Positions 3,426 through 63,694 of a stretch of 64,000 nucleotides of DNA are shown here, piece after piece. Both the position numbers and the translations under genes were made by a program. A model generated the notes under the pieces. It was not told the DNA's origin. It saw only the letters and a list, made by a program, of their open reading frames with translations, and ran no database searches. The first letter of the stretch is position 1; each line of letters opens with the position of its first letter. The DNA comes from a virus: IMG/VR virus record IMGVR_UViG_3300033153_015023, positions 16,026 to 80,025 of that record; one strand, written 5' to 3'.

Positions 3426-3988
3426 TGCTGTGGTTTATTATAACTTTACCAGCAAAACTTGCAGAATACCATCTTGAAAAAGCAATTAGACGGGGGTTAT
3501 TGAACAGTCATTTTATTAGAAAAGATATAATTATCTATATTCCAGTACTTACACAGATAACAAATGGACATACAACCAGCATATCTTTATATGAAGGTTA
3601 TGCGTTTTTAGGTCTGCCTGATAAAGAAGACGTCTTTCAATTTTTTGAAGGTTTTGAAGACAGATATAACTTTTTGACGGTGCTACGAAAGGTTGTTACT
3701 GAAAAAAATCATGTTGGGAAATCTGTTGATAATAAAATACCTGCAATAATCTCTCGAAGTATTATAACTGATGCAAAGCGCAGATGTAGTACATCACGAA
3801 GGGAATCAGATAAATCTTATCGATTTAAAATTAAGGATAGAGTCCATATTACAAAAGGTGTGTTTGAAGGATTTGAAGGAACTATAAAACAAATAAGTTC
3901 TTTAGGGACAGAAGTGTTTGTCGATATTTTCTTTTTAGGTGCGACTACATCAATTCGTACGGATAAAGAAGATCTTGAAAAAATATAG
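3425..3988 (+). CDS. NusG-like transcription factor with C-terminal KOW domain
   Basis: A 187-aa protein with NusG architecture. The N-terminal part has short strands ending in SLYEGYAFLGL, which matches the NGN-domain pattern before YVFV-type residues. After a basic linker (about 108-130), residues about 133-187 form a KOW domain (FKIKDRVHITKGVFEGFEGT). Host NusG/RfaH proteins bind RNA polymerase and affect pausing and termination. A phage copy between recombination genes and nrdJ suggests antitermination or host RNA polymerase control, which is inference. Confidence 0.75.
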   Translation: MLWFIITLPAKLAEYHLEKAIRRGLLNSHFIRKDIIIYIPVLTQITNGHTTSISLYEGYAFLGLPDKEDVFQFFEGFEDRYNFLTVLRKVVTEKNHVGKSVDNKIPAIISRSIITDAKRRCSTSRRESDKSYRFKIKDRVHITKGVFEGFEGTIKQISSLGTEVFVDIFFLGATTSIRTDKEDLEKI

Positions 3989-15177: not shown

Positions 15178-16219
15178 GAAGATAGGTGGAAAAATACCTA
15201 AATTACCTGCTTGTCGAATAGAGGCTAGAAATGAAGCGGATGCAAAACAAAAATTATTACGGCTTAATAGTAGATATGGTATAATTGATTTTGATGGTAT
15301 GAGTGAGTTTGTTAATGATATGGAAATTAATATTGATGATTTAGCGTTACCTGATATTAATATAGATGATTTAAAAGTATTATTAACTGGTGAAGAAGGT
15401 ACAAAAGCTGATGATGAGCTGCCTGAAGATATCCTTGTAATATCTAAGTTAGGTGATTTATGGGAATTAAATAATCATAGGATACTATGTGGGGATAGTA
15501 CGGACGCTGAACAGGTTGGAAAACTGATGGCTGGAGAGAAGGCGGACATGGTGTTCACCGATCCGCCTTATGGGATGTTTTTAGATGCTGATTATTCGAG
15601 CATGGAAGGGATAGGGAAAGGGAATAAATACAGCAATGTTAAAGGAGACCATAAAGATTTTAACCCTGAATTAATCAACTCAATTTTTATAAACTTTTCG
15701 TATTGCAGAGAAATATTTTTATGGGGAGCCGATTATTATGCCGAATTGATCCCGAAAAGAAATAAAGGTTGTTTTATCGTATGGGATAAAATGAAAGGCG
15801 GAGAAGGTGCCAATGATAAATATGATAAAATGTTCGGGAGCAATTTCGAATTGTGCTGGAGTAAAACAAGACATAAAAGGGCGATTGCAAGAGTCTTATG
15901 GAAAGGCATATTTGGATTAGAAAAAGAACACGATCACAAAAGGCATCATCCCACCCAGAAACCGACAGAGCTTGTTTTATGGTTTTTGGATAAATTCTCA
16001 AAAAACAATAAACCGATCACCGACCCCTTCCTCGGCTCCGGCTCTACCCTCATCGCCTGTGAGAAAACCGATCGCATCTGCTACGGCATGGAAATCGAAC
16101 CGCACTATGTAGATGTATCTGTTCGTAGATGGATTGATTGGTGTAAACAAAATAATAGAGCTATAAAAATAAAACTGAATGGGAAGATTGTAAAAGAAGA
16201 TATATTGATAAATAAGTAA
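15146..16219 (+). CDS. DNA methyltransferase (DPPY) with truncated ParB-like N-terminus
   Basis: 357 aa from GTG at 15146. Residues 2-60 (GRLLALQLYKKIGGKIPKLP) are the second half of a ParB-like domain. After LGDLWELNNHRILCGDS comes the methyltransferase: FTDPPYG is the catalytic motif and DPFLGSGSTLIACE the SAM-binding motif. This is typically an N6-adenine enzyme. The catalytic half looks intact, so it may still work as a reinitiated product. The 16010-16110 stretch is unusually GC-rich compared with its surroundings. Confidence 0.8.
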   Translation: MGRLLALQLYKKIGGKIPKLPACRIEARNEADAKQKLLRLNSRYGIIDFDGMSEFVNDMEINIDDLALPDINIDDLKVLLTGEEGTKADDELPEDILVISKLGDLWELNNHRILCGDSTDAEQVGKLMAGEKADMVFTDPPYGMFLDADYSSMEGIGKGNKYSNVKGDHKDFNPELINSIFINFSYCREIFLWGADYYAELIPKRNKGCFIVWDKMKGGEGANDKYDKMFGSNFELCWSKTRHKRAIARVLWKGIFGLEKEHDHKRHHPTQKPTELVLWFLDKFSKNNKPITDPFLGSGSTLIACEKTDRICYGMEIEPHYVDVSVRRWIDWCKQNNRAIKIKLNGKIVKEDILINK

Positions 16220-55276: not shown

Positions 55277-55882
55277 ATGAAAGACGTTTTATTTATCAGT
55301 CCACATACCGATGATGTAGAGCTTTCTTGTGGTGGGACTATAGCAAGATTTGCAGAAATAGGCATATCTGTTAGAGTATTATGTTTAGCAGATGGAAAAA
55401 ATCTTTATCTGGATATACCTTTATTTGAAGAATTTCGTAATTCTATGAAGGTGCTTGATGTAAAATGGTATCAACTCCAGGAGTTTCCAATTCGTGGTTT
55501 TTCAGAATATCGACAAAAAATTTTAGATTGTTTTATTTTTATCAGAGATTCTCTTTCCCCTGGGGCTGTTTTTATCCCATCACGATATGACACACATCAA
55601 GATCATAAAACAGTTTATCAGGAAGCAATAAGAGCTTTTAAATATTGTAACGTTTATGAATATGAACAACCATGGAACCACTCTATATTTGAACCACAGT
55701 TTTTTGTTTCTCTTCAAAGGAACCATGTAACAAAAAAAATAAACTCTCTTCAATGTTATGCCTCACAAGCCAGCAGACCTTATATGCAAAAAAACCATAT
55801 ACTTTCTCAATTAACATATCGCAGCTTCTTTGCAAAAACATCATGGGCAGAAGTATATCAAATCAGAAGGATTATAATATGA
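55277..55882 (+). CDS. PIG-L/LmbE-family deacetylase
   Basis: 201 aa. ISPHTDDVELSCGG near the N-terminus (H10, D13) and YDTHQDH (H110) are the zinc site of PIG-L N-acetylglucosamine deacetylases. First of three apparently coupled genes. No clear SD; TATAAT occurs just before the ATG, so the start may be leaderless or the true start unclear. Substrate would be an N-acetylated sugar or related compound. Confidence 0.82.
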   Translation: MKDVLFISPHTDDVELSCGGTIARFAEIGISVRVLCLADGKNLYLDIPLFEEFRNSMKVLDVKWYQLQEFPIRGFSEYRQKILDCFIFIRDSLSPGAVFIPSRYDTHQDHKTVYQEAIRAFKYCNVYEYEQPWNHSIFEPQFFVSLQRNHVTKKINSLQCYASQASRPYMQKNHILSQLTYRSFFAKTSWAEVYQIRRIII

Positions 55883-56919
55883 AGGTTTTAGTAACTGGTA
55901 TAGGTGCTCCTGGAATAAGAGGAACTATTTATTCAATTCGAAAAGCGTTTCCTGCTGTAGAAATTATCGGTGTGGATATAAAAAAGAATGTTGTTGGAGA
56001 GTGGTTTGTCGATAGATTCTATCAAGTTGCTGAACCGGAGTACTTATCATACATTTACGAACTACAGAAGATTTGTGAAGAGGAAAAAGTAGATGTCCTT
56101 CTTCCTCAATGTACACGAGAATTAATTCCATTGTCGCAGTTTAAAGACGATTGGGAAAAAACAGCAGTTTGTATTTCTTCAACGAGAGCGATAAAGCTGG
56201 CTCTCAACAAGTATGACGTTATACAGGTAGGTAAAAAGGCAGGATTGCCTTGTGTAGAAACGATGTTAGCAACTACTTTTTCAGAGCTAATTCAGACTAC
56301 GGATGCCTTAGGTTATCCAGATAAACCAGTAGTCGTAAAGCTTTTGGATTCGAGTGGATGTAGAGGTGTAAGAATATTGTCCTCTTCCTCTCTTACTTTA
56401 GAGGACTTTGTAGACAAGAAGCCGGATGGTTTGACATGTTCTAGAGAAGCAATAATAAATACATTTGCCAGCGCAGAAGAGGTTCCAACATTATTAGTAA
56501 TGGAATATCTGCCTGGACCAGAGTATACTGTCGATTGTTTTAAAGGAAAGAGTTCTACTGTTATTGTTCCACGTCTTCGAAAGAAGATGGTAAATGGAAT
56601 TTCGTTTGAAGCAAAAGTTGAAGTGAGGAATGATATTATCGAGCAGTCTCGACTGTTATTAGAGGAAATTGGATTGAAGTATGTCTTTGGATTTCAGTTT
56701 AAACTAGATGAAAACAATAAACCTTTTTTACTCGAATCGAATCCTCGTGTACAAGGGTCGATGGTTGCAAGTACTTTTGCAGGAGCGAATGTAATTGAGT
56801 ATGCGATAAGGGAGGTATTAGGAGAAGATGTTAAAGTGTCTCCAGATATTAAAGAGATTGAATTTCAAAGATATTGGGGTGGAGGAAGTGTAGTTGATGA
56901 TAAATACTACGAAATCTGA
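55879..56919 (+). CDS. ATP-grasp ligase (carbamoyl-phosphate-synthase-like)
   Basis: 346 aa from the ATG at 55879, overlapping the PIG-L stop. LVTGIGAPGIRGTIYSIRKA is a Rossmann-like front, KPVVVKLLDSSGCRGVRI the ATP-binding loop, and FGFQFKLDENNKPFLLESNPRVQGS the Mg-binding E-x-N. Such enzymes join a carboxylate to an amine or thiol. Coupled to a deacetylase that would free an amine, it may acylate that amine. Confidence 0.82.
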   Translation: MKVLVTGIGAPGIRGTIYSIRKAFPAVEIIGVDIKKNVVGEWFVDRFYQVAEPEYLSYIYELQKICEEEKVDVLLPQCTRELIPLSQFKDDWEKTAVCISSTRAIKLALNKYDVIQVGKKAGLPCVETMLATTFSELIQTTDALGYPDKPVVVKLLDSSGCRGVRILSSSSLTLEDFVDKKPDGLTCSREAIINTFASAEEVPTLLVMEYLPGPEYTVDCFKGKSSTVIVPRLRKKMVNGISFEAKVEVRNDIIEQSRLLLEEIGLKYVFGFQFKLDENNKPFLLESNPRVQGSMVASTFAGANVIEYAIREVLGEDVKVSPDIKEIEFQRYWGGGSVVDDKYYEI

Positions 56920-57508
56920 TTTTGATAAAAGATGTTTATTCCATCTACATACTAATTATACTGATGGTGAGATGAATGTTGAAAACTATTTTACTTATGC
57001 TAAGAAATATAATTATACGTCCTTAGTATTTTTAGAACATATCAGAAAACATCCTTCTTATGATACGCAAAAATATATTGCTGAAATCAGGCACCATGAA
57101 AAACGAACAGGGATAAAAGCGTTTGCCGGTTTTGAAGCGTCTCTTCGTAAAGATGGATCACTGGATATATCAGAAAAGGATATTAAGAGATGTGATGTTT
57201 TAGGGATGGCAGAGCATAGACTTCCAAATGAGCTTGGAGGATATCTTCGTGCACTTACAATTGCAATTCAACAGTGGAAAGATATACCACGAGTATGGTT
57301 ACATCCTGGAATGTGGTTTCAAAAAAGAAAGATATTGAATGAGAAGTTTCTGGTGTATAGAAAAATGTTGAATTTAGCAGTAGAAGAAGGGTGGTTGATT
57401 GAACATAATATCAAATATGATTTGATTCCATATAAGATGAAAGGAATCGTTCCATCTAAACATTTAATTACTGGGGTAGATTCTCATAAAATAACTGATT
57501 TATATTAG
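56897..57508 (+). CDS. PHP-domain hydrolase
   Basis: 203 aa from the ATG at 56897 with GGAGGAAG upstream. FHLHTNYTDGEMNVENY, FLEHIRKH, FAGFEASLR, MAEHRL and VDSHKI give the His/Asp metal set of PHP phosphoesterases. Third gene of the trio; overlaps the ATP-grasp end. May remove a phosphate in the same pathway. Confidence 0.8.
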   Translation: MINTTKSDFDKRCLFHLHTNYTDGEMNVENYFTYAKKYNYTSLVFLEHIRKHPSYDTQKYIAEIRHHEKRTGIKAFAGFEASLRKDGSLDISEKDIKRCDVLGMAEHRLPNELGGYLRALTIAIQQWKDIPRVWLHPGMWFQKRKILNEKFLVYRKMLNLAVEEGWLIEHNIKYDLIPYKMKGIVPSKHLITGVDSHKITDLY

Positions 57509-57512
57509 AGCA

Positions 57513-57556
57513 TAAAAAAAGAAGAGGCTGCTTTTACACAGCCTCTTCTTGTATTT
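57513..57556. terminator. Bidirectional terminator between convergent operons
   Basis: AAGAAGAGGCTG / CAGCCTCTTCTT, a perfect 12-bp stem (57519-57550) with an 8-base loop. Seven As at 57513-57519 give a U-tract for leftward transcripts, and GTATTTATTTATTT follows for rightward ones. Rightward genes end at 57508, leftward at 57559. Confidence 0.92.
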
Positions 57557-58318: not shown

Positions 58319-58390
58319 CCCCCTTCTTTCAGATCTCATCAGTGCAATTAACAATTGCAGACCAGGGCAAGTATACCCTGGTTTCGATCT
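58319..58390 (-). promoter_or_regulatory. Two-hairpin leader element G
   Basis: On the minus strand ACCAGGG/CCCTGGT (58361-58382) is followed by TGCAATT-GTT-AATTGCA (58343-58359), then AAGGGGG and the ATG at 58313. Same layout as elements A-F and H, with different stem sequence. Confidence 0.55.
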
Positions 58391-58573
58391 TTACCTCACA
58401 AGTTCATATAAAGATTTTTTATCTTCTGTAAAAACATTTAGCATAACAAATTCAGATTCTTCACACAAAGCTTCTGCATAGTTTTGTGCTGCTAAATCAT
58501 CTTTAGCTTCAAATTTTAGATTCCAAGATTTTCTACTTTTAGGACTTTTAAGAAAATATAGCGTGTAAGTCAT
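58391..58573 (-). CDS. Small hypothetical protein, 60 aa
   Basis: Begins TYTLYFLKSPKSRKSWNLKF, then a helix (DLAAQNYAEALCEESEF). SD TAGGAG. No family recognised. Confidence 0.55.
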   Translation of the reverse strand: MTYTLYFLKSPKSRKSWNLKFEAKDDLAAQNYAEALCEESEFVMLNVFTEDKKSLYELVR

Positions 58574-58582
58574 TTTATACTC

Positions 58583-59200
58583 CTATTCTTTACCTAAAGC
58601 TGGTGCTATAATACAATACATATTTGTTGTATCAAAACAATATGAACTATCAATCCTAACAGATTTATTCACGTGAATTTCTTCCGGCAACTGGATAGAA
58701 AGTTTTTCTGGTTGAAGGAACTTTAGTATGCGCAAATCAATTGTTAATATCTTATTCTGTAATTGAGGATAGTGAACTTCTTTATAATTCAACCGCAAAA
58801 AATCTTTAGAGTCTTCTTCACCTTTATCAAATTGATCACCTACCGTTATTGATATACCCTCTTCTGTAAAACGTGTCCAGACTAAATCTTTCTTTTTTAG
58901 TTTAAAAGCTTTTAATAAAGGGTAAAAATCTTTTGGGATAAATAGTTGATAGTTAGGATTGTTATTATCAATTATGTTACAGATATTAGGCGCTCTTTTA
59001 TCAGCACCACTTTCTATTTTACCAGATTTATCTATTGTTTTAGCGCCTTCGGGAATAGTTTCAACAGTAGATAATAAAATTTTGCCATTGGTATACACGA
59101 TGGGTTTTTCCCTGTCATCAAGAAAAAGCAGGTCTCTATAAGTAGCTGGAATTTTGTTAGCATGTTTTGTAAAAGCTGTTGTGATAATATCTTTTTTCAT
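58583..59200 (-). CDS. Second clamp-like hypothetical protein, 205 aa
   Basis: Beta-rich with YTNGKILLSTVETIPEG near the front and CFDTTNMYCIIAPALGKE at the end, a pattern that parallels the protein at 57559 (CTDGKRLHIFPG ... KYVTAVIAPQ). Probably a distant paralogue with a clamp-like fold. SD ATAGGGGG. Its leader is identical over 43 bases to that of the gene at 60476-60649. Confidence 0.45.
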   Translation of the reverse strand: MKKDIITTAFTKHANKIPATYRDLLFLDDREKPIVYTNGKILLSTVETIPEGAKTIDKSGKIESGADKRAPNICNIIDNNNPNYQLFIPKDFYPLLKAFKLKKKDLVWTRFTEEGISITVGDQFDKGEEDSKDFLRLNYKEVHYPQLQNKILTIDLRILKFLQPEKLSIQLPEEIHVNKSVRIDSSYCFDTTNMYCIIAPALGKE

Positions 59201-59236
59201 CCCTTCCCCCTATTAATAATACTATAGTTTTAACTA
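59194..59236 (-). repeat. 43-bp leader repeat, copy 1
   Basis: Starts at the ATG of the gene ending at 58583 and reaches back through its SD. Identical to 60643-60685; similarity continues a further 13 bases with 2 differences. Confidence 0.85.
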
Positions 59237-60465
59237 GTTTCTTTACTATTATTTTTTGCCAACCTGTTTAATACTGTAGTTTTAACTCCTTTATAGAGTT
59301 CATGTTTTTTTACTGTTCCTTTTAGATCATAAGATTTTGTAATTTCAAAATTAATCTTAGTTCCACTATAGTAACTTTTAAAGTTGTTGCCATTTTCATC
59401 TTTGAAGGCAATAAGATAGGAACTTCCATAAATACTATCTATTTCTTTTATGAAAAAACAATTTAATTTTAACTCGATTCTATCCCCGATATTTCCAATA
59501 TGTTCAGAAGGTGCAAATTCTTTGTTATCTTCAACTTTTTTTAATTTTGAATCATTATTAACTTTCCAGATGGCGTAACAAACAATTCCAGGGGATTTAA
59601 TATCATCTCTGAGAGTCCCATCTTCAAAGAATAAATTATTTTTAATATTGTGTTCAAAGTCATTTTGAGGAACCATCTTTTCATAGTTATCTATGAGTAA
59701 TTGTTCTTGCCCATTCAGGAAGGCCTTTTTATTAGTAATATTTTTTTCAATATAATTTTTATAATCCTGAATAACTTCTTTGTCATAATAATTAGAAGAT
59801 TTCAAAGCGTCTTTAAGAAGATAAATATCTTTCATTGTATTGTTATCATAATCTTTAAGAGATTTCCAGGAGAGGTTAAACATTTTAGTAACATAAGTAA
59901 GATTAAGAATTAGGCTGCTTAGATCATACATAGGACAATAATTTGATCCTGAAAATTCTCTTTCGATTGTTTCTACAAAAGAAGAGTAAGTTTCTAGAGC
60001 TTTTCTAATATCCAATCCAAACCATTCATCAACACAAGAAGAACCGATAATCTTTATTTCTTTTTTCGCATCTTTAAATATAAAGAACTTAGTTCTGTAT
60101 CTTTTGATATTACAGTGATCACAGGTTAATCTGTCTTTTAATATATTTCCTAATATAATATTTTCATCATGTTTATTATTAAAAATCTCTTTTATCCCAT
60201 TTTTAATAGAAATTATTCCTAGAAAAGTTACTTTCTGTTTTCCTAAAATTTCAGGTTCTGAGATTTCGGATTCACATACTTCTACTTTATATATTTTGTG
60301 ATTAGGGGGGTCAAAAGGATCTATAATATCAGAAGTTCTTTTTTCTATTTTAGAAATTGTAGAAAGAGTTTCAATTTTTTGATTATATTTTGAAAGGCGT
60401 TTATTAAGCTTTTTGAGCTTTTCAAGAAAATCATTTTTCTTTGCTTTATCATATTTAATAATCAT
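59230..60465 (-). CDS. Large hypothetical early protein with zinc motif and OB-like end, 411 aa
   Basis: The ATG at 60465 has AAGGGGGAG upstream; 20 residues upstream in frame have no SD. LTCDHCNIKRYRTKFFIF and IIGSSCVDEWFGLD form a cysteine-rich module seen in large phage hypotheticals. A helical middle is followed by a C-terminal beta part (IGDRIELKLNCFFIKEIDS ... GTVKKHELYKGVKTTVLNR) that resembles an OB-fold. A DNA- or RNA-binding role is plausible. Confidence 0.6.
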   Translation of the reverse strand: MIIKYDKAKKNDFLEKLKKLNKRLSKYNQKIETLSTISKIEKRTSDIIDPFDPPNHKIYKVEVCESEISEPEILGKQKVTFLGIISIKNGIKEIFNNKHDENIILGNILKDRLTCDHCNIKRYRTKFFIFKDAKKEIKIIGSSCVDEWFGLDIRKALETYSSFVETIEREFSGSNYCPMYDLSSLILNLTYVTKMFNLSWKSLKDYDNNTMKDIYLLKDALKSSNYYDKEVIQDYKNYIEKNITNKKAFLNGQEQLLIDNYEKMVPQNDFEHNIKNNLFFEDGTLRDDIKSPGIVCYAIWKVNNDSKLKKVEDNKEFAPSEHIGNIGDRIELKLNCFFIKEIDSIYGSSYLIAFKDENGNNFKSYYSGTKINFEITKSYDLKGTVKKHELYKGVKTTVLNRLAKNNSKETS

Positions 60466-60475
60466 CTTCTCCCCC

Positions 60476-60649
60476 TTATCCTGGATAACCGGCACTATCG
60501 AGTGAGTCAGATACGGTTTGTTCAACGGTTATGCCGTTATCGTAATTATCCCGATAGCAATAATCCGGTAGATCATTACATGATAGCCCAACTTCCTCTT
60601 CAAGTATGGTATTTATAGCAGATTTAAAATCCTTAAAACTTCTTTTCAT
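60476..60649 (-). CDS. Small early protein, 57 aa (paralogue of the one at 61168)
   Basis: Acidic. DLPDYCYRDNYDNGITVEQT matches DLPDFHYRDNFDNGISVIAT in the protein at 61168-61338, and both are short helical proteins. SD ATAGGGGG. The pair must come from duplication. Function unknown. Confidence 0.6.
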   Translation of the reverse strand: MKRSFKDFKSAINTILEEEVGLSCNDLPDYCYRDNYDNGITVEQTVSDSLDSAGYPG

Positions 60650-60685
60650 CCCTTCCCCCTATTAATAATACTATAGTTTTAACTA
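60643..60685 (-). repeat. 43-bp leader repeat, copy 2
   Basis: Identical to 59194-59236, including ATTAATAGGGGGAAGGG and the ATG of the following gene, with a small TAGTTAAAACTA hairpin. The repeat is the translation-initiation region of two different genes. Confidence 0.85.
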
Positions 60686-60700
60686 TTTTCTTTATTATAA

Positions 60701-60910
60701 TTAATCTTTTATTTTACCATATTCCATTTTATATTTTTCATTGCAACAAATTTGTGGATAAACAGAATTGATAATATAAAACATGGCAGGTTGTTTAATT
60801 TTGTTAAGCCATTTTTCAGCTTTTTCCATTGAAGTAGTAGTTCTAAGTCTATGTTCTTGTACCATGTTTTTTTCTTTATTATATTTTACTATTACTAGTC
60901 CTATTTTCAT
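60701..60910 (-). CDS. Small hypothetical protein, 69 aa
   Basis: Pattern KIGLVIVKYNKEKNMVQEHR and TTSMEKAEKWLNKIKQP suggests a small alpha/beta protein. SD AAGGAG. No family recognised. Confidence 0.5.
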   Translation of the reverse strand: MKIGLVIVKYNKEKNMVQEHRLRTTTSMEKAEKWLNKIKQPAMFYIINSVYPQICCNEKYKMEYGKIKD

Positions 60911-60919
60911 TTTTTCTCC

Positions 60920-61090
60920 TTATAAGTTTTTCGTGATAATCTTGGTACTGCCAGATTTATCATTAAACCAAAACATTAATATATCCCCTTCTTGAGTAAA
61001 GCTCTCTTCAAATGTTTTGTTTTCACAAGGAAATCTACTGCCGTGTTTTTTGATAACTTCATCTATCATAGTTTGTTTGATCTCTTCCAA
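60920..61090 (-). CDS. Small hypothetical protein, 56 aa (TTG start)
   Basis: TTG at 61090 with GGGGG 8 bases upstream. One domain with a hydrophobic ending strand (EGDILMFWFNDKSGSTKII). No family recognised. Confidence 0.45.
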   Translation of the reverse strand: MEEIKQTMIDEVIKKHGSRFPCENKTFEESFTQEGDILMFWFNDKSGSTKIITKNL

Positions 61091-61100
61091 TCTTCAATCC

Positions 61101-61167
61101 CCCTATAATTTATTAAGCTTAAAAGCTTTACCTGGGAGCGATCTTATATCGCTCCACAATAAAACCG
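61101..61167 (-). promoter_or_regulatory. Two-hairpin leader element A
   Basis: GGAGCGAT/ATCGCTCC (61135-61155, 8 bp) then AAGCTT-TT-AAGCTT (61115-61128), then GGGGG. Flanked by GTTTTATT before and AATAAATTATA after, shared with elements B and C. Confidence 0.6.
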
Positions 61168-61338
61168 TTAAATAAAGTCTGCGTTTTCTAGAGCTTCCTC
61201 AACAGTAGCTATAACGCTTATACCATTATCAAAATTATCCCGATAATGAAAATCTGGTAAATCATCTGATGTTAAACCATATCGTCTTTGTAACTCTAGA
61301 TCTACTGCCATTCTAAAACTCTCAAATAATGTAATCAT
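61168..61338 (-). CDS. Small early protein, 56 aa (paralogue of the one at 60476)
   Basis: Contains LTSDDLPDFHYRDNFDNGIS and the helix TVEEALENADF. TAGGAG upstream. See the 60476 protein for the shared motif. Function unknown. Confidence 0.6.
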   Translation of the reverse strand: MITLFESFRMAVDLELQRRYGLTSDDLPDFHYRDNFDNGISVIATVEEALENADFI

Positions 61339-61344
61339 TTTAGT

Positions 61345-61412
61345 CTCCTAATATTTTATTAAAGCTTAAAAGCTTTACTCGACGCCTAGTTGCCTAGGCG
61401 CCAATAAAACTG
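61345..61412 (-). promoter_or_regulatory. Two-hairpin leader element B
   Basis: CGCCTAG/CTAGGCG (61383-61400, 7 bp) then AAGCTT-TT-AAGCTT (61362-61375), then AATAAAATATTAGGAG before the ATG at 61338. The first stem differs in sequence from that of element A. Confidence 0.6.
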
Positions 61413-61706
61413 TTAAACTTTCGGCTTGAATTCCACATGTTCTGCAACAATTATAATTCCGCCATGCTCTTGTTCTAGTCGACCGACCACCCGTACTCCT
61501 CGGCCCTCATCAAGGTGTTCAAAACAAGTTGTGGCCAATTGGCCATAGACAGCAATATCAAAATCACTGGTTTCAGTTTCGATCTCTTCTACTTTCTTGC
61601 AATACCTTTTTGACTCGATTATAAAATTAAGCCTATCCTTAGATGTTAAACCAGTAGAAATACTTTTAACGGTTCCCTCCATTAGGACTGAATTTAAATC
61701 GTTCAT
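61413..61706 (-). CDS. ssb: Single-stranded DNA-binding protein
   Basis: 97 aa, one OB-fold. NDLNSVLMEGTVKS, FIIESKRYCKK, FDIAVYGQLATTC and GRGVRVVGRLEQEHGGIII, with AEHVEFKP at the end, match phage SSBs in order. The acidic C-terminal tail of cellular SSBs is missing. Protects ssDNA in replication and recombination. SD AATAGGGGG. Confidence 0.85.
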   Translation of the reverse strand: MNDLNSVLMEGTVKSISTGLTSKDRLNFIIESKRYCKKVEEIETETSDFDIAVYGQLATTCFEHLDEGRGVRVVGRLEQEHGGIIIVAEHVEFKPKV

Positions 61707-61710
61707 TTTA

Positions 61711-61783
61711 TCCCCCTATTAATTTATTTAAGCCTAAAGGCTTTATTCGGCAGTCAATATAAGATTGGCTGCCAATAAAACCA
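61711..61783 (-). promoter_or_regulatory. Two-hairpin leader element C
   Basis: GGCAGCCAAT / ATTGACTGCC (61749-61773, one mismatch) then AAGCC-TTTA-GGCTT (61730-61743), then AATAGGGGG and the ssb ATG. Relative to A and B the second stem has paired changes (T-A to C-G), so pairing is kept. Confidence 0.65.
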
Positions 61784-62155
61784 TTAAAGTTTTTCTTTTG
61801 CCGTCTCTAATTTTTCAACAGCTTTCTTTTCCTTTTCTATCCTTGCTTGGATAAAATCTGATATTTCATCCAACCAGCCTGTTGCTACATCATGGGCAAA
61901 ATTTAGGCAGGCGATACGGTCCGGCTTTTCATCCATCTGAAAATCTTGATACCCCCCAGGAGAACAAAGCGTTTTTCGATATGTCAACTGATAATTCCTG
62001 GGCAGATCGAGTAATTCTATTGGATATGCCGGTACCTCGATTTGATCACAAATGATGTCTGCAACCTCCCTCACTGCCTCTCGCAGTTTCTCTGTGCATC
62101 GGCTATTTTCCGATCCAACCCGTTCTAACCGTTTCAAACTATTAATTAAACTCAT
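61784..62155 (-). CDS. Hypothetical helical protein, 123 aa
   Basis: Helical ends with a middle segment (LPRNYQLTYRKTLCSPGGYQ) and a coiled C-terminus (RIEKEKKAVEKLETAKEKL). Starts just after element D. More GC-rich than the nearby genes. No family recognised. Confidence 0.55.
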   Translation of the reverse strand: MSLINSLKRLERVGSENSRCTEKLREAVREVADIICDQIEVPAYPIELLDLPRNYQLTYRKTLCSPGGYQDFQMDEKPDRIACLNFAHDVATGWLDEISDFIQARIEKEKKAVEKLETAKEKL

Positions 62156-62188
62156 ACAAACCCTCCAGCGTTTTTAGCCCGCCAGCTA

Positions 62189-62253
62189 TTTTTCTCAGGC
62201 TAACAGCCCGCCAAACAGCTCCGGTCGGGGAGCCGTCCAGTAGGATGTTAGAT
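62189..62253 (-). promoter_or_regulatory. Two-hairpin leader element D (65-bp repeat, copy 1)
   Basis: ACGGCTCC/GGAGCTGT (62215-62236) then GGGCT-GTT-AGCCT (62197-62209). About 62 of 65 bases equal 63459-63523. The differing base pair is G-U in leftward RNA but a mismatch in the other strand, which points to a leftward RNA. Starts at the stop of the gene at 62248. Confidence 0.7.
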
Positions 62254-62454
62254 GATCTGATATTCTCTTTTCCTCCAATAAAATAATTCCAAGGGCAGCT
62301 TTTCGGCATATCCCTGGAGCGTTTTTTTACATTCGCAAATTGCTATTTGTTGCCATTTCCATGTATGTAATACAGGACAGGCCATGCGGCTGTGATCTTT
62401 TTTATTGTCAATAATTTTATCAACCTTAATTTCTAAAATTAAATGTTTTCTCAT
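62248..62454 (-). CDS. Small hypothetical protein, 68 aa
   Basis: Contains one CEC pair and several His (SRMACPVLHTWKWQQIAICECKK), perhaps a metal site. SD CAAGGGGG. No family recognised. Confidence 0.55.
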   Translation of the reverse strand: MRKHLILEIKVDKIIDNKKDHSRMACPVLHTWKWQQIAICECKKTLQGYAEKLPLELFYWRKREYQII

Positions 62455-62464
62455 TTATTCCCCC

Positions 62465-62530
62465 TTGATATTTTTCACTAGCCTAACAGGCCCACCAGAC
62501 GGCACTGGTTAAAATGCCGTCCAATTGCTG
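62465..62530 (-). promoter_or_regulatory. Two-hairpin leader element E
   Basis: GACGGCA/TGCCGTC (62498-62521, 7 bp, 10-base loop) then GCCT-GTT-AGGC (62481-62491), then GTGAAAAATATCAAGGGGG and the ATG at 62454. Related to D and F but with changed stem bases. Confidence 0.65.
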
Positions 62531-62554
62531 TAAAATAATTTCGTATGGTTTCAT
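62483..62554 (-). CDS. Possible 23-aa peptide
   Basis: ATGA overlap with the preceding gene, then MKPYEIILQQLDGILTSAVW. Its 3' half coincides with element E, so it may only be a by-product of that structure. Low certainty. Confidence 0.25.
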   Translation of the reverse strand: MKPYEIILQQLDGILTSAVWWAC

Positions 62555-62733
62555 TTTTGTACCCCCCGTATCATCAATTCATAGTGATAATCAAAGTTAA
62601 AAATTAAACCTTGTCGGTGAACATCGTCAAGTTCTGCTTTTGAGAGCAGAAAGAATTTTGATGGATTGTAACCAGTACCTTCTTTGATTTTGTGATAGCC
62701 GATACTGCAAGGTAGTTTTTCGATGTACGTCAT
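62551..62733 (-). CDS. Small hypothetical protein, 60 aa
   Basis: SD AAAGGAAAA. LPCSIGYHKIKEGTGYNPSK and a final FDYHYELMIRGVQK suggest a compact beta-rich fold. No family recognised. Confidence 0.5.
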   Translation of the reverse strand: MTYIEKLPCSIGYHKIKEGTGYNPSKFFLLSKAELDDVHRQGLIFNFDYHYELMIRGVQK

Positions 62734-62753
62734 ATTTTTTCCTTTAAAAGATA

Positions 62754-62969
62754 TTAGGATTTAGCATAGGCAATAATACGAAGAGCATCTGCAAATATTA
62801 CTGCAAAACGATCATAGATTTTGCCATTATATTTTTCAGTAATTGAATATACTGAACAGTGGATTTTGTCTACTAACGGCATGATGTCGATATGAGGATC
62901 AATTTCCTTAGAGATTTTCTCACAGATTTCTTGAAACGTAATTAAGTATGGTTTTGATACGCAAGTCAT
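62754..62969 (-). CDS. Small hypothetical protein, 71 aa
   Basis: TAGGAG upstream. Helical (TFQEICEKISKEIDPHIDIM) with a hydrophobic end. No family recognised. Confidence 0.5.
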   Translation of the reverse strand: MTCVSKPYLITFQEICEKISKEIDPHIDIMPLVDKIHCSVYSITEKYNGKIYDRFAVIFADALRIIAYAKS

Positions 62970-62999
62970 TTTATTTACTCCTATGATTTATTTATTTCC

Positions 63000-63058
63000 T
63001 TTACAGGATATAACCTGCCCCCGGAATCGAACCGGGGGAAGAACCGTTCAGGTTGTTA
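63000..63058 (-). promoter_or_regulatory. Two-hairpin leader element H with T-arm-like loop
   Basis: CCCCCGG-TTCGATT-CCGGGGG (63018-63038) has the exact loop of a tRNA T arm. An outer AACCTG/CAGGTT stem (63012-63054) competes with a second hairpin, CAGG/CCTG (63004-63017). No D or anticodon arm is present. Confidence 0.5.
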
Positions 63059-63232
63059 AAGCGATGGTACTACAATAGATTCCACTATAACTTTTCTGCA
63101 TCTTTCTAAATAACATTCCCATAATTCTTCTTTGCCAAGATCGCTATAGATACCATTTCCCAAATAGGTCAGTGTACGATTGGCAACTTTTTTTTGATTT
63201 GCTGTCAAATCTTTTTCGTAAATCTTTCTCAT
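63056..63232 (-). CDS. Small hypothetical protein, 58 aa
   Basis: The ATG at 63232 has AAGGGGGAC upstream, better than the longer reading from 63277. Basic N-terminus (MRKIYEKDLTANQKKVANRT), then LGKEELWECYLERCRKV. No family recognised. Confidence 0.5.
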   Translation of the reverse strand: MRKIYEKDLTANQKKVANRTLTYLGNGIYSDLGKEELWECYLERCRKVIVESIVVPSL

Positions 63233-63258
63233 TCCGTCCCCCTTATTAATCTGCATTT

Positions 63259-63387
63259 TTAGATTCTTTCGATCCAACGTACAACATCTTTATTGCTCAA
63301 ATCCCGATGGTCAATAATTGTTTTACTGTCAACTATTTCGTTTAATTTGGCAACAACCGCATTAAGCCGATTCTGGCATTTTTCCAT
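63259..63387 (-). CDS. Small hypothetical protein, 42 aa, possibly frameshifted front
   Basis: MEKCQNRLNAVVAKLNEIVD then DHRDLSNKDVVRWIERI. The strong SD and ATG of this interval (63437) open a different 31-codon frame (MTKTNDAVCMAGGISRG). In the frame of the 42-aa ORF, translation could continue upstream through GWRDQPG. One indel between the two frames would join them, so the gene may be split. Confidence 0.4.
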   Translation of the reverse strand: MEKCQNRLNAVVAKLNEIVDSKTIIDHRDLSNKDVVRWIERI

Positions 63388-63458
63388 CCCCGGCTGATCC
63401 CTCCAGCCATGCAAACCGCATCATTTGTCTTTGTCATTTTCTCTCCCCCTCTATAATA

Positions 63459-63523
63459 TTTTTCTCAGGCTAACAGCCCGCCAAACGGCTCCGGTTGAGG
63501 AGCCGTCCAGTAGGATGTTAGAT
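63459..63523 (-). promoter_or_regulatory. Two-hairpin leader element F (65-bp repeat, copy 2)
   Basis: ACGGCTCC/GGAGCCGT (63485-63506, perfect) then GGGCT-GTT-AGCCT (63467-63479), GAGAAAAATATTATAGAGGGGG follows before the ATG at 63437. Near-identical to element D 1.2 kb away. Confidence 0.7.
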
Positions 63524-63694
63524 TTTAATAAGTGAGCGGCAATATCCCCAATCCTCTGGTGTTGGTTTGTTGCGGGGCTCAGCGTCTGATATGCTGCTCC
63601 CCTGTGCAATCATTTCACCTTTGTGCCAGTACTCATTCAGTCCTGGACACCGTTTTACAATTTTTCCGTATTTGCTGGTATACACTCGTTTCAT
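63518..63694 (-). CDS. Small hypothetical protein, 58 aa
   Basis: Contains RVYTSKYGKIVKRCPGLNEY and a final DWGYCRSLIKI. SD GGGAGA. Element F starts at its stop codon. No family recognised. Confidence 0.5.
   Translation of the reverse strand: MKRVYTSKYGKIVKRCPGLNEYWHKGEMIAQGSSISDAEPRNKPTPEDWGYCRSLIKI

Follow-up and report, generated by a model that had tools for sequence, protein, structure and literature searches.

Why does a phage operon carry a folded RNA element in gap after gap between its genes? The question arises in the leftward early operon of a virus known from an 80,025-bp contig (IMG/VR record IMGVR_UViG_3300033153_015023), of which bases 16026-80025, 64,000 nucleotides in all, make up the window analyzed here; positions refer to the window unless a contig or locus is named. 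An original prediction had described eight gaps in this operon, A to H, each with a GC-rich hairpin, a short hairpin, an A/T-rich spacer, a Shine-Dalgarno (SD) sequence and a start codon, and had grouped them as one family. All eight layouts were found on the minus strand at the places given, but the sites are of three kinds: A-F form an alignable family, G reads as a hammerhead ribozyme, and H resembles a truncated tRNA. On balance, we favor the explanation that the gaps of this operon hold interchangeable RNA-cleavage sites that would turn one long transcript into single-gene mRNAs.

Structured gaps of the leftward early operon

A scan for a hairpin followed by a short hairpin, an SD and a start codon, run without the predicted coordinates, recovered all of A-H. 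It returned 16 matches on both strands of the 80 kb, against a mean of 1.45 (maximum 4) in 20 dinucleotide shuffles, so that equal frequency in shuffled sequence, the outcome by which the original prediction had agreed to be judged, was not what we observed. Folding z-scores of the eight gaps ranged from -1.8 to -4.8, those of C, D, E and H being individually weak, and 18 gaps among the rightward genes averaged -0.5. The gaps at 60650-60700, 59201-59229, 63233-63258 and 62734-62753 of the same operon have no such element. The first two share, on the minus strand, a common leader without a strong hairpin, TAGTTAAAACTATAGTATTATTAATAGGGGGAAGGG, which represents a second kind of repeated leader.

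Elements A-F, all on the minus strand, can be aligned with one another from the stop codon through the SD and, judged by sequence, are one homologous family. Element A (61091-61172) opens with the stop codon and a 5′ arm (61156-61172), continues with an upper hairpin (61135-61155) and a short hairpin, AAGCT.TTTA.AGCTT, near 61115-61130, and ends in an A/T spacer and the SD before gene 60920-61090. Element B (61339-61418; long hairpin 61360-61418, upper hairpin 61381-61402, short hairpin TAAAGCT.TTTA.AGCTTTA) precedes a DUF5419 gene at 61168-61338, and element C (61707-61789; long hairpin 61730-61789, upper hairpin 61749-61773, short hairpin AAGCC.TTTA.GGCTT) precedes the SSB-like gene at 61413-61706. 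Element D (62156-62254; long hairpin 62196-62254, upper hairpin 62211-62240, short hairpin GGGCT.GTT.AGCCT) lies before gene 61784-62155. Element F (63415-63524; long hairpin 63466-63524, upper hairpin 63481-63510) is a near-copy of D with the same short hairpin, GGGCT.GTT.AGCCT. Element E (62455-62535; hairpin 62485-62530, short hairpin GGCCT.GTT.AGGCT), before gene 62248-62454, has the two-hairpin fold only.

In A-D and F the short hairpin has a competitor, a longer fold that the original prediction had overlooked. Extended upstream to take in the stop codon and a few preceding bases, each of these five elements folds as a single long imperfect hairpin, with 22 bp of helix in the minimum fold of A, 24 in B, 23 in C and 21 in D and F, and favors this form by 2 to 5.5 kcal/mol over the one with two hairpins. 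In the long form, the 3′ arm doubles as the 5′ strand of the short hairpin; since the 5′ arm pairs with that strand, the two forms are mutually exclusive and the RNA should be bistable. The stability gained from the arm exceeds that from shuffled arms in all five (p 0.002 to 0.017; Fisher p ~1e-6), the p values not being fully independent because the arm is common to A-C. Every element except E places in an early-operon gap an imperfect double helix of about 20 bp, as T7-type RNase III sites do.

Comparison of eight copies, A-F and two from a related phage described below, gave six distinct short-hairpin stems in which all pairs are kept (30/30); 27 of 20000 strand shuffles reached the same score. 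The claim that pairing persists while stem sequence changes was thus borne out for the short hairpin of A-F. In the automatic alignment a gap falls within the short hairpin, and a MAFFT alignment that included the relative's copies was misaligned and was left out of the analysis. The predicted preference of G-U pairs for leftward RNA also held, and more widely than for the elements in which it had been noticed: in all six of A-F and in both of the relative's copies the leftward RNA has a more stable fold than the complementary strand, because several pairs are G-U in that strand only, the margin being negligible for C (-21.3 versus -21.2). We considered and set aside a coding origin of the D, E and F hairpins in a common frame (LDGxxTxAVW), as A-C have no such frame and E and F differ by paired changes. 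A possible 23-codon open reading frame, MKPYEIILQQLDGILTSAVWWAC (62483-62554, minus strand), overlaps the stop of the previous gene (ATGA), has a good SD upstream and ends within the short hairpin of E; it might encode a leader peptide or be what is left of a gene.

Site G (58331-58390, minus strand) has a different architecture, with stem II open and stems III and I closed. Hand reading and a strict scan both gave a core in type II order, AGATC-GAA-A..stem III..U-C^-stem I-CUGAUGA-GAUCU, the sequence being AGATC GAA ACCAGGG..CCCTGGT C / TGCAATTGTTAATTGCA CTGATGA GATCT. The core contains CUGANGA, GAA, the A15.1-U16.1 pair and H17 at the cut, and the three stems comprise 7, 5 and 7-9 bp. G was the sole match of the strict hammerhead scan in the 80 kb, and 60 shuffled genomes gave 0 matches. 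On these grounds G is a type II hammerhead ribozyme with predicted self-cleavage. The predicted cut falls between 58360 and 58359, and the 5′ end of the product would coincide exactly with the stem I hairpin (58343-58359).

Site H (63012-63054, minus strand) consists of a 6-bp acceptor, a 10-nt bulge and a 7-bp T stem with the loop TTCGATT, and is without an anticodon arm. Its acceptor is stacked on a T arm (6+7 bp) with the T-loop consensus, and a hairpin, TCCT-GTAA-AGGA (62997-63008, minus strand), lies just 3′ of it. Structures of this type occurred at a mean of 0.25 per shuffled genome, and two similar ones are found in gaps of the relative. H does not form a full cloverleaf and was not called as a tRNA by ARAGORN or Rfam. 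Another tRNA-like structure lies directly before the first gene of the operon (locus L004, 385-435, minus strand); it comprises GTACCAT, GATAGCTAGC, a T-arm-like hairpin and GATGGTAC, and its loop departs from the T-loop consensus.

Ribozymes in corresponding gaps of related phages

Among bacterial and archaeal genome assemblies, a portal-based scan identified a relative, JAUXAU010000001.1 (locus L011), an 88,703-bp phage contig in synteny with that of the window phage (portal 64%, terminase 61%, SSB-like protein 47% and DUF5419 protein 35% identical). This contig has been assigned to a metagenome-assembled genome named Candidatus Thermoplasmatota archaeon, apparently by a mistake in binning. 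In its leftward early operon (L013 7400-15600, minus strand) there are ten type I hammerheads, one per gap, nine of them recovered by a strict scan and all ten by a covariance model (E <= 2e-13). The same operon also has two tRNA genes, a pair of tRNA-like structures and two A-F-type elements (L013 12601-12684 and 8616-8706). In the leader of this operon, at L013 ~15290-15325 and 15210-15245 (minus strand), we also observed a tandem motif, TTCCTTGG..ATTTT..CCGTACG, with paired changes in a small stem, a further structured RNA.

Comparison of the two operons gap by gap revealed exchanges between kinds of structure. The gap before the SSB-like gene is occupied by C in the window phage and by a hammerhead (L013 13057-13117) in the relative; likewise, the gap before a DUF5419 gene holds B in the former and a hammerhead in the latter. 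The gap after the SSB-like gene carries B in the window phage and an A-F-type element in the relative. Together with the covariation of the short hairpin, the hammerheads in corresponding gaps support the proposal that these are selected RNA elements acting in processing or stability.

The type I hammerheads were further examined in an alignment of 16 sequences from the relative and from loci L019, L020 and L021. Standard pairs fill 99% of the pair cells, double changes occur in 16 of the 20 pairs, and none of 500 shuffles was as good. Covariation extends to a three-base pseudoknot that joins loop II to the bases following stem I (GGU/ACC, AGU/ACU, GAU/AUC and GGC/GCC), so that covariation argues for a type I core, three stems and the loop II tertiary contact in the relative's gaps. 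With the covariance model, additional copies were located in L018, L020, L022 and L023, and Rfam 15 recognizes none of the relative's ten. After every hammerhead comes a hairpin that reuses a stem I strand: the 3′ strand GURGG followed by GAAAC-YAC would form, after the cut, the hairpin GURG-GAAA-CYAC, which itself covaries. A one-base core insertion recurs across several phages, though it is thought to slow cleavage (L013 13057-13117, 11448-11507 and 9622-9684; L021 and L019; CUGAAUGA, CUGAAGAU, CUGAUGAU).

Phage L021 adds a second class of ribozyme. Two pistols occupy gaps at 2806-2875 and 3609-3678 (minus strand; E ~1e-8 to 1e-10) of an operon that also has at least 4 type I hammerheads, and they are followed by the hairpins AGGU-GAAA-ACCU and GAG-CGAAAA-CUC, with GAAA-type loops. 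The covariation check set by the original prediction, run on the few relatives at hand, left that prediction standing.

Cleavage as the proposed shared function, and competing explanations

We infer from these features that the gaps are cut in the cell, by different agents at different sites, and that the resulting mRNAs are protected by their 5′ hairpins. The common plan would be a site that begins at or just past the upstream stop codon and includes a structure that gets cut, leaving a downstream product in which a short 5′ hairpin and an A/U-rich spacer precede an exposed SD. As a hammerhead, G would be self-cleaving, and H, as a tRNA-like minihelix, would be a substrate of RNase P and/or RNase Z. 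A-F would present near-continuous helices of about two turns to host RNase III, which by analogy with the early region of T7 is the most likely cutter. In A-D and F the cut would free the 3′ arm of the long hairpin, which could then refold into the 5′ hairpin, and we propose that this refolding makes the step irreversible and protects the mRNA. As one strand is common to the pre-cut stem and the short hairpin, the same logic would operate in A-F as in the hammerheads. A bolder version, in which each A-F element substitutes for one hammerhead in the corresponding gaps of related phages, either as a new class of self-cleaving ribozyme or as a dedicated "cut and refold" RNA switch, we regard as a long shot.

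Several observations weigh against cleavage as the shared function. G falls below the Rfam cut-off (best 25.3 bits versus 48.5), and it shows no obvious loop I pseudoknot, its loop I, UUGUUAA, not being complementary to the downstream GAAAGAAGG. This pseudoknot is present in the majority, not all, of type II hammerheads (Perreault 2011, PMC3088659), and G may be slow without it. Some of the relative's hammerheads have a one-base core insertion of a kind found to lower activity. Within the A-F family, E prefers two hairpins over the long fold, as does R2, one of the relative's copies, and the stability gained from the arm falls short of significance in E and in R1, the other copy. For this operon the comparison also draws on a single syntenic relative, and multiple copies from the same genome do not count as independent.

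The alternative that fares best, though we hold it unlikely, is that A-F are hairpins that are never cut, which would protect the 3′ end of the mRNA, stop ribosomes from running on past the stop codon and free the next SD, G being a separate matter. The hairpins of A-F do stand directly at stop codons and their SD is unpaired, and inverted repeats before the starts of genes in cluster K mycobacteriophages have been suggested to act in translation initiation (PMC3203893). What speaks for cleavage instead is that predicted self-cleaving ribozymes occupy the relative's gaps before the SSB-like and DUF5419 genes, and that the shared-arm switch is the same in A-F and the hammerheads.

That A-F are themselves a new class of self-cleaving ribozyme, in which the helix of the 5′ and 3′ arms closes and the cut falls just 5′ of the short hairpin, is very improbable. 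It would account for their presence at positions of hammerheads and pistols in related operons, for the same cut-then-refold design and for the lack of any Rfam match to A-F; however, the helices are almost continuous and lack a conserved unpaired core, those few bases that are both conserved and unpaired (the GUU loop and a GAAAAAUA tail) are unlike a catalytic centre, and E and R2 fold as two hairpins.

We give hardly any credence to a role at the DNA level, with A-F as attC-like recombination sites of a cassette array or as mobile palindromes. D and F are near-copies, many small unrelated genes stand in a row, and the CTAACA...TGTTAG ends over the stop codons of D and F bear what we take to be a resemblance to attC R′′/R′ boxes. 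Nevertheless, A-C are without GTTRRRY ends, the identity of D and F extends beyond the expected crossover point, and the G-U pairs favor leftward RNA in all elements, where a folded bottom DNA strand would have A-C mismatches. The 80-kb genome has no tyrosine recombinase (PF00589), integron integrases included, in a search whose control was positive in 14 genomes; this absence and the strand bias of the G-U pairs led us to reject the attC reading. Equally remote is the idea that the elements act on RNA polymerase, as sites of transcription attenuation or antitermination, since, for all that the hairpins lie on the transcribed strand at gene ends, no U-tract follows the stems, a terminator-like site is present only where the operon ends, and the hammerheads in matching positions act on RNA, not on polymerase.

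Genomic setting and comparison with known systems

A 114-bp direct repeat occurs in exact form at both ends of the contig (G000 1-114 and 79912-80025). It implies a circular or circularly permuted genome, probably complete and circularly mapped, in which the leftward operon begins near contig ~600, outside the window. The operon runs from there, where by eye we took TTGACA...TATTTT at contig 601-634 as the promoter, across the contig end and down to a GC-rich inverted repeat with a T run at 57514-57550 (no strand assigned), the terminator that closes it. It encodes ~20 mostly small proteins, including the SSB-like protein and two DUF5419 proteins. Just before the terminator, on the plus strand (55879-57508), an ATP-grasp protein (ATPgrasp_Ter family) lies beside a PHP-domain protein, a pair kept in the relative (46% and 50% identity).

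In GenBank the portal has relatives mainly among phages of Paenibacillus and other Firmicutes, at ~27% identity, and no close DNA relative was found among 50,697 GenBank phages. The operon proteins of 411, 205 and 123 aa, used as queries, had remote matches only, or none. DNA patterns of D/E/F matched just two unrelated contigs (L006 and L007), those of A/B/C none, and terminase and portal scans of viral contigs returned short structural contigs only (L008, L009, L010 and L024). Rfam at gathering score gave no matches over the window.

Processing of phage transcripts by hammerheads is itself already known: Perreault et al. 2011 (PMC3088659) described clustered hammerheads, including type II, between (pro)phage genes, showed that several arrays cut their own transcripts and proposed that single-gene mRNAs result. 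The present arrays differ from those in their mixture: tRNAs, tRNA-like structures, pistols (in L021) and a new hairpin family stand in matching gaps beside the hammerheads, and behind each hammerhead lies a hairpin that reuses a stem I strand. As far as the literature we searched shows, the mixed array, the A-F family and the downstream hairpin with a shared strand appear to be new.

A-F also recall the R0.3-R1.3 sites of T7, imperfect hairpins in the gaps of an early polycistronic phage transcript, where RNase III processes that transcript into mono- and dicistronic mRNAs (PMC4858673). They differ from them in holding the stop codon in the stem and in having an alternative short hairpin that uses the 3′ arm, and RNase III cutting of A-F is proposed by analogy. 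The ESAS elements of cluster K mycobacteriophages (PMC3203893) are similar in being repeated coding-strand inverted repeats just upstream of the starts of many small genes. These are accompanied by a 13-bp start-associated sequence and have a conserved repeat sequence, with no ribozymes described, whereas in A-F the sequence varies and pairing is kept; the 13-bp GGGATAGGAGCCC was not found before starts here, where AGGGGGA, AGGAGA and similar sequences occur instead.

In tRNA punctuation and in the t-elements of plant mitochondria, tRNA-like minihelices between coding regions serve as processing signals. H would extend this arrangement to a phage setting, with RNase P or RNase Z as the presumed enzymes.

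The engineered RiboJ insulator combines a ribozyme with a 23-nt hairpin before the ribosome-binding site (PMC6993053). The operons described here follow a similar order, a predicted self-cleaving ribozyme and then a hairpin that leaves the ribosome-binding site exposed, ahead of individual genes; they differ from RiboJ in being natural, in recurring gap after gap and in having the hairpin share a strand with the ribozyme. The phage sites would thus be a natural counterpart of RiboJ. The analysis also yields a hammerhead subfamily missed by current Rfam models. More broadly, if the gaps are cut as we propose, they would offer a reason for the commonness of self-cleaving ribozymes in phages, a long-standing question: the ribozymes would be one form of an interchangeable cutting device of early operons, a role in which tRNA-like structures and long hairpins may serve as alternatives.

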